From an uncultured Sphingosinicella sp. (GTDB taxonomy: Bacteria; Pseudomonadota; Alphaproteobacteria; Sphingomonadales; Sphingomonadaceae), in contig NZ_CADCWD010000070.1 in assembly GCF_902806315.1 (NCBI RefSeq), positions 1 through 47,711 of the forward strand: DNA of 47,711 bases, in the 5' to 3' direction. The translations under genes and the position numbers were made by a program. The notes beneath the pieces are model-generated. The model ran no database searches. It was not told the DNA's origin and was given only the letters and a program-made list of their open reading frames with translations. Shown piece after piece: positions 4,767 to 42,843 of the stretch. The first letter of the stretch is position 1; each line of letters starts with the position of its first letter.

Positions 4767-5093
4767 TCAGGGCCGCGCCGCAGTCCGCACGTCGGCAGAA
4801 GGTGCCGTTTTGGCGCGGGCATTGCACCTAGCGAGCTCTTCGGCCGGCAGCGCCTCGCCCTTGAAGCTGAAGCTGCGCAGCGCGCCGATCTCCCTGGCGA
4901 GAACCGCACACGCCACGGCTGGACGGCTATGGCCCTGAGCAGCCGCGCACCCCGCATCGCCGCACTTCCACAACGTGTCCCGGAGCGCGAACTTGGCCTT
5001 GCTCGGTGCGACTTCCGGCTGCGCCTGGAACAGCGGAGCGGCCGAAGCGGGCGCGGCAAGGAGGCCGAAGGCGAGGATGGCTGTGCGAAGCAT
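4767..5093 (-). CDS. CC_3452-type small secreted cysteine-containing protein
   Basis: The 108-residue protein has a clear signal peptide (MLRTAILAFGLLAAPASA, cleavage near 18/19). The mature part has four cysteines (44, 49, 62, 90) with the pattern DTLWKCGDAGC, then RPAVACAVLAREIG and ELARCNARAK. This matches my recollection of the CC_3452 family of small periplasmic proteins in Caulobacter and sphingomonads, whose function is unknown. A good Shine-Dalgarno (GAGGAG) precedes the ATG. It is divergent from the HxlR gene, and two perfect dyads lie in the shared 120-bp promoter region, so HxlR control is likely. It ends about 50 bp upstream of rsh on the same strand. Confidence 0.75.
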   Translation of the reverse strand: MLRTAILAFGLLAAPASAAPLFQAQPEVAPSKAKFALRDTLWKCGDAGCAAAQGHSRPAVACAVLAREIGALRSFSFKGEALPAEELARCNARAKTAPSADVRTAARP

Positions 5094-5113: not shown

Positions 5114-5157
5114 GTTGCTATCTGCAACCTATATGCGAGTCCGTTGCGTTACGCAAC
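5114..5157. promoter_or_regulatory. Two tandem GTTGC-N5-GCAAC operators in the CC_3452/HxlR promoter region
   Basis: Perfect dyads GTTGC-TATCT-GCAAC (5114-5128) and GTTGC-GTTAC-GCAAC (5143-5157) lie between the divergent genes, with centres 29 bp apart, close to three helical turns. The same side of the DNA would therefore face two bound dimers. HxlR-family regulators bind such dyads and are usually autoregulated; that these are the sites of the adjacent HxlR protein is inferred. A third copy of the dyad occurs at 42829-42843. Confidence 0.7.
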
Positions 5158-5213
5158 TCTATTGCTTCGGCACATGACAATGTTGTAAAAAGGCGTAAAC
5201 CTGCGGCACCAGC

Positions 5214-5675
5214 ATGAAGCCCGATCACCAGAAGAGCTTGCTTACCAATTGCGCCATTCCCGCAGCGCTGGAGGCGGTCGGCGAGCGTTGGTCGTTCCTG
5301 ATCCTTCGCGGCGCCTTTAACGGTCTGCATCATTTTGAGGAGTTCCAGTCGACACTCGGCATTGCTCGGAACATCCTTTCAAACCGCCTTGCCCGGATGG
5401 TTGAGCACGAGATCCTGAAGCGGGAGCCCGATCCTGCCGACCGACGCCGCGTGGCTTATCGGCTGACGGAGAAAGGCCGTGAGCTGCTGCCGGTGCTGAT
5501 CGCCCTGCGTCAGTGGGGCGAGAAATGGGTGTCGGGCGTGCCGAGCAACCCCGTGTTGGTCGATCGGGCAGCACGGCGTCCCGTGGCTCCCATCGCGGTA
5601 ACGGCCGCCGATGGCCGGCCTCTCTCATTGGAAGAGCTCGACTGGGTGGATCGGGCCGAAGTGGCGCAGGGCTAA
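5214..5675 (+). CDS. HxlR-family winged-helix transcriptional regulator
   Basis: The 153-residue protein has the HxlR winged-helix fold over residues 10-100: CAIPAALEAVGERWSFLILR, then the recognition region (FEEFQSTLGIARNILSNRLARM) and the wing (DPADRRRVAYRLTEKGREL). Cys13 occupies the N-terminal position that several HxlR proteins (YodB, HypR) use to sense quinones, diamide or hypochlorite, so thiol-based sensing is plausible but unproven. A C-terminal extension of about 45 residues (RRPVAPIAVTAADGRPLS) follows. The gene is divergent from the CC_3452 gene with two perfect dyads between them. Its last 3 bp overlap the convergent alkyltransferase gene. Confidence 0.9.
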   Translation: MKPDHQKSLLTNCAIPAALEAVGERWSFLILRGAFNGLHHFEEFQSTLGIARNILSNRLARMVEHEILKREPDPADRRRVAYRLTEKGRELLPVLIALRQWGEKWVSGVPSNPVLVDRAARRPVAPIAVTAADGRPLSLEELDWVDRAEVAQG

Positions 5676-42828: not shown

Positions 42829-42843
42829 GTTGCAATGGGCAAC
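42829..42843. promoter_or_regulatory. GTTGC-N5-GCAAC operator upstream of the RND efflux operon
   Basis: GTTGC-AATGG-GCAAC is identical in its ten fixed bases to the two dyads in front of the HxlR gene. It lies in the divergent region between the efflux operon and the maleylacetoacetate isomerase gene. It partly overlaps a second dyad, ACTTCT-G-AGAAGT, at 42818-42830. Control by the HxlR protein is inferred from motif identity. Confidence 0.6.

Follow-up and report, generated by a model that had tools for sequence, protein, structure and literature searches.

Between the divergent genes CC_3452 (minus strand, ATG at 5093) and hxlR (plus strand, ATG at 5214) of an uncultured Sphingosinicella sp. 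lie two perfect DNA dyads, and the question that this locus raises is which protein reads them and on behalf of which gene. The window, that is, the whole stretch of DNA analysed here, spans 47,711 nucleotides, and its dyads match the description in the original prediction: two identical GTTGC-N5-GCAAC sequences, both exact, with a start-to-start distance of 29 bp (Table 1). We favor, with a probability of roughly 0.78, a reading in which HxlR represses CC_3452 locally, through a tandem operator that modification of Cys13 would open. The arrangement, a divergent regulator and its target, is of a known kind; the target family is of unknown function.

Table 1. Positions of the dyads, genes and putative promoter elements within the window
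Feature	Position	Strand	Remarks
CC_3452 family gene	4767-5093	minus	108 aa; signal peptide by inspection only; cysteines 44, 49, 62, 90
Dyad 1, GTTGC-N5-GCAAC (GTTGCTATCTGCAAC)	5114-5128		centre 5121, over the putative CC_3452 transcription start; exact match; conserved in genus and family
Putative CC_3452 -10, TATAGG	5128-5133	minus	17 bp from the -35
Dyad 2, GTTGC-N5-GCAAC (GTTGCGTTACGCAAC)	5143-5157		hxlR-side half contains the putative CC_3452 -35; exact match; conserved
Putative CC_3452 -35, TTGCGT	5151-5156	minus	placed by the recurring TTG-to-TAGG distance across loci
Tentative hxlR promoter, ATGACA, 16 bp, TAAACC	5174-5201	plus	by inspection, weak; downstream of both dyads
hxlR	5214-5675	plus	153 aa; HxlR-like winged helix; single cysteine Cys13

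Exact GTTGC-N5-GCAAC dyads are far more frequent in the window than chance would provide (three matches versus 0.04 expected, a number reached in 0 of 100 shuffles), and the source genome (2.69 Mb in 97 contigs) holds four exact places, two of which are the 5114-5157 pair. Relaxed to GTTKC-N5-GMAAC, the single dyad shows no genome-wide enrichment (12 places versus 18 for a reversed control pattern), and a lone relaxed dyad therefore carries little meaning. It is the tandem pair, not the single dyad, that is the distinctive feature. A 44-bp pattern of the pair, sought in 26 genomes of the genus at the fixed 29-bp spacing and with up to two mismatches, occurs at 10 places in nine genomes, versus none for the control. 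Seven of these places are the gap between CC_3452 and hxlR, including every one with zero or one mismatch; the remaining three carry two mismatches each.

When the other dyad places of the source genome were viewed against the reading frames (10 loci), several proved to lie inside long frames. The third exact dyad of the window, at 42829-42843, is situated between a divergent RND adaptor-like gene, as we take it to be, and another gene, presumably a maleylacetoacetate isomerase look-alike. This place was rejected as a second target, as 18 genus relatives of the RND adaptor-like gene (52-55% identity) have no one-mismatch counterpart upstream. A scan also flagged 5143-5157 as terminator-like. 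The hairpin or terminator reading was likewise rejected, because in 54 of 86 exact sites the half-sites would not form a fully paired RNA hairpin, which favors a DNA-binding protein.

The original prediction had been staked on conservation upstream of orthologous genes, and such conservation is found at the level of both genus and bacterial family. Matches to hxlR occur in 25 of the 26 genus genomes, 24 of them close (at least 231 bits), and in 13 genomes CC_3452 stands divergently beside the gene. All 13 of these hxlR orthologues are accompanied by a site and 11 by two, spaced 27-31 bp apart and by exactly 29 bp in seven of the 11. The family survey comprised 128 CC_3452 places, drawn from sets of 16 and 112 with three shared places counted once, of which 117 were paired loci, defined by a divergent hxlR within 700 bp of CC_3452 (measured between model matches). 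With the pattern GTTKC-N5-GMAAC and at most one mismatch, a site accompanies 113 of the 117 paired genes, whereas 60 shuffles of the same regions yielded a mean of 4.98; 65 loci have an exact site (shuffled mean 0.23) and 102 have two or more (0.10), leaving four without a site at one mismatch. The commonest spacings over the 117 loci are 7, 27, 34, 51, 44, 17, and 29 bp, and some loci of other genera, L151 and L165 among them, carry up to four dyads at recurring steps of 7, 17, and 27 bp. The CC_3452 family itself is present in 113 of 199 sampled genomes and 56 of 96 genera of the bacterial family.

CC_3452 genes that stand alone bear on the identity of the binder. Among the 11 in the bacterial family that lack an adjoining hxlR, none has an exact site and two have a one-mismatch site (shuffled mean 0.45, largest 3); their scores under our own model, 51-93 bits versus 55-127 for paired genes, mark them as more distant paralogues. 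Outside the bacterial family, five of seven CC_3452 places score above the family cut-off, all without an hxlR match in the locus, and four of the five have no site, the exception (L264) having two with one mismatch each. Fur, or some other regulator of perhaps global reach, could in principle bind the sites, and the available part of a Caulobacter iron study reports that CC_3452 rises 2.52-fold when iron is limiting and 2.51-fold when fur is mutated (PMC3751524). This reading is nevertheless highly improbable, considering that solo CC_3452 genes mostly lack sites, that the genome shows no excess of single dyads, and that close copies of the pair occur only at the CC_3452-hxlR locus, unlike a global regulon.

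The reciprocal comparison concerns hxlR genes that lack CC_3452. In the genus, nine of 11 such orthologues have no site, the two exceptions being G009, where dyad 2 remains exact, and G018, where it has one mismatch. In an HxlR-side survey of the best 80 of 527 confirmed relatives, 65 loci have CC_3452 and 64 of these have a site, counts that are not independent of the others, as L059-L073 lie on the same contigs as genus loci and the sets of 80 and 117 may overlap further. The other 15 of the 80 were called without CC_3452, and three of them have a site; one of the three is L102, whose contig ends 231 bp upstream and which was left out of the judged loci, so that 12 of 14 judged loci without CC_3452 among these best 80 have no site. 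Where hxlR is kept without CC_3452 and sites, it must have another role or target. Two more distant HxlR paralogues (L030 and L032, 59 and 58 percent identity, from two genomes) have no dyads upstream.

The sites thus co-occur with CC_3452 and hxlR and are largely absent where CC_3452 is missing, which argues that they serve the CC_3452 promoter. Beyond CC_3452 lies what we take to be a Rel/SpoT-like gene, and a Rel tree of 53 loci implies nine changes of CC_3452, at least seven of them forced by supported branches. In seven independent pairs on this tree, sites go with CC_3452 in five and against it in none (p 0.0625; underpowered), and the weaker HxlR tree offers only four supported pairs, on average 1.8 with CC_3452 and 0.0 against. 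Individual dyads also erode: in alignments, L064 retains dyad 2 but no longer has dyad 1, and the dyad 2 of L066 and L067 is degraded. L131, L136, and L138, all from Sphingomonas, lack both CC_3452 and the sites, whereas L128 and L137, with an almost identical Rel, carry both, and this set is a natural deletion experiment. Some losses look like single deletions that took gene and sites together. Rel itself was rejected as the true target, as 25 of the 80 loci have no rel match in the flank (the only region examined, with several of the 25 named Novosphingobium), yet 23 of the 25 have CC_3452 and a site.

The position of the dyads relative to promoters points to the same gene. A strict sigma-70 scan of the window did not find a CC_3452 promoter, and the CC_3452 promoter elements in Table 1 were placed by comparison across loci. 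Over the 117 regions, TTGY and TARG lie 23 bp apart in 90 pairs (next commonest distance: 9), and 87 regions aligned on this spacing share a long footprint that ends in TAGGTAGTGATTCGCAAC; in the window TAGG begins 25 bp on, because the hexamer starts TATAGG. With the promoter so placed, the -35 would be overlapped by dyad 2 and the start point by dyad 1, which is where repressors classically sit. CC_3452 is therefore a probable target, as originally supposed, its putative promoter bearing sites that are conserved with the gene. Alternatively, the main purpose of HxlR at the dyads might be regulation of hxlR, CC_3452 being affected only secondarily or not at all. Divergent regulators often act on both sides, and RrpA and RrpB of Campylobacter jejuni, in the accessible portion of their description, protect sites upstream of themselves, RrpA also upstream of its divergent target (PMC8765430). 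At the present locus, however, the tentative hxlR promoter is downstream of both dyads, and in most loci where hxlR remains without CC_3452 the dyads are gone; we consider this alternative quite improbable. Of the proposed operator role, the part concerning the CC_3452 promoter is supported, and the part concerning the promoter of hxlR is not, nor is autoregulation through the dyads, given the missing sites in the genus and judged loci described above.

For repression of CC_3452, we strongly infer HxlR as the candidate binder. Among those neighbours of the loci that were annotated, hxlR is the only regulator gene found beside the sites. Downstream of it is an ogt-like gene on the opposite strand, followed by a gene presumably encoding the RNA polymerase omega subunit; PADLOC found nothing. 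The protein passes PF01638 (76.1 bits versus a cut-off of 20.8), and its best NCBIfam match is RrpB (NF047364), but far below the cut-off (44.2 versus 175 bits). Its winged-helix stretch LGIARNIL shows no variation across 27 aligned rows, some of them from genomes without CC_3452. The centres of the GTTKC half-sites are 10 bp apart, about one helical turn, which matches the 34.8 Å, or one turn, between the recognition helices of DNA-bound Bacillus subtilis HxlR, according to the available text of the structural study (PMC7835342).

Cys13, the sole cysteine of the protein, is found in the N-terminal sensor place to which it had been assigned, aligning with the N-terminal cysteine of HypR (YybR) and of B. 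subtilis HxlR. A cysteine at this position, within C-x9-G-x-R-W, recurs in all 80 of the best 80 of 527 HxlR loci, though only 27 of these 80 proteins have a single cysteine, and a one-cysteine switch is thus not general. By position and homology, Cys13 is possibly the sensor whose modification releases HxlR, and HxlR would act as a repressor. The opposite sign, activation of CC_3452 through the sites as B. subtilis HxlR activates its target, merits very little credence. It is true that structure records name B. subtilis HxlR an activator and that formaldehyde activates it, as the accessible part of the same study states (PMC7835342). On the other hand, the dyads lie over the putative -35 and start, usual repressor territory, and the Lys two residues past the cysteine, which that source makes part of the formaldehyde switch, is Ile15 in the window protein.

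Repression by a thiol-responsive HxlR protein would have parallels in YodB, CatR, and HypR, the thiol-sensing MarR/DUF24 repressors of B. subtilis, with which the window HxlR shares a Pfam family. Their targets are a quinone reductase or a dioxygenase, whereas here the target is probably an exported small protein. A putative CatR operator, TTACGTTACGTAA, resembles dyad 2, a likeness that is not used here as evidence. More than one box is likewise present at the catDE promoter, with two CatR boxes and one YodB box in the part of the account available (PMC6212828). SydR, a MarR-type, redox-sensitive repressor of Sinorhizobium meliloti, similarly has a divergent intergenic region with two perfect inverted repeats of the same sequence, but this repeat, TATCGCGATA, is unlike GTTGC-N5-GCAAC, each gene has one repeat upstream of its start site, and the protein has two cysteines; the authors liken it to OhrR, and the word HxlR is absent from the portion of text available (PMC11633110). 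RrpA and RrpB have divergent target genes, as here, although their half-sites in the available text, TATCAT or TTATAA at 17-24 nt, differ from the dyads of the window (PMC8765430).

The putative target passes the CC_3452 family model NF047636 (90.1 bits versus a cut-off of 40), and the protein is probably exported. Of 47 aligned CC_3452 proteins, 40 have all four cysteines, seven (L081, L083, L096, L111, L124, L128, and L130) lack the first two jointly, and none lacks just one, a joint loss which suggests that two disulfides hold the protein together. Its predicted structure has a mean pLDDT of 82, and a Foldseek search of this model against the PDB gave no match at E 0.001 or better. Among the literature matches listed, none describes the CC_3452-hxlR pair or how sphingomonads control CC_3452, and the Caulobacter iron study is the one paper, as far as its available part goes, that names CC_3452 (PMC3751524).

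Taken as a mechanism, the two dyads would form a tandem operator for the HxlR encoded next door, with one HxlR dimer per dyad reading the GTTKC half-sites. HxlR bound at dyad 2, over the -35, and at dyad 1, over the start point, would block RNA polymerase. Once Cys13, in the N-terminal helix, is modified, HxlR would leave the DNA and CC_3452 would be switched on, yielding a small, probably exported protein with seemingly two disulfides. A bolder and rather doubtful extension would make HxlR and CC_3452 a sphingomonad-wide envelope thiol-stress switch, in which a cytoplasmic cysteine regulator comes off an array of as many as four dyads (in 7, 17, and 27 bp steps) and the exported disulfide protein, without a recognised solved fold, serves as a periplasmic protectant or scavenger. 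A likely operator, promoter, and regulator are now proposed for the CC_3452 family of unknown function, which is thereby tied to a likely thiol-responsive regulator, and the signal that releases HxlR would hint at the role of CC_3452.
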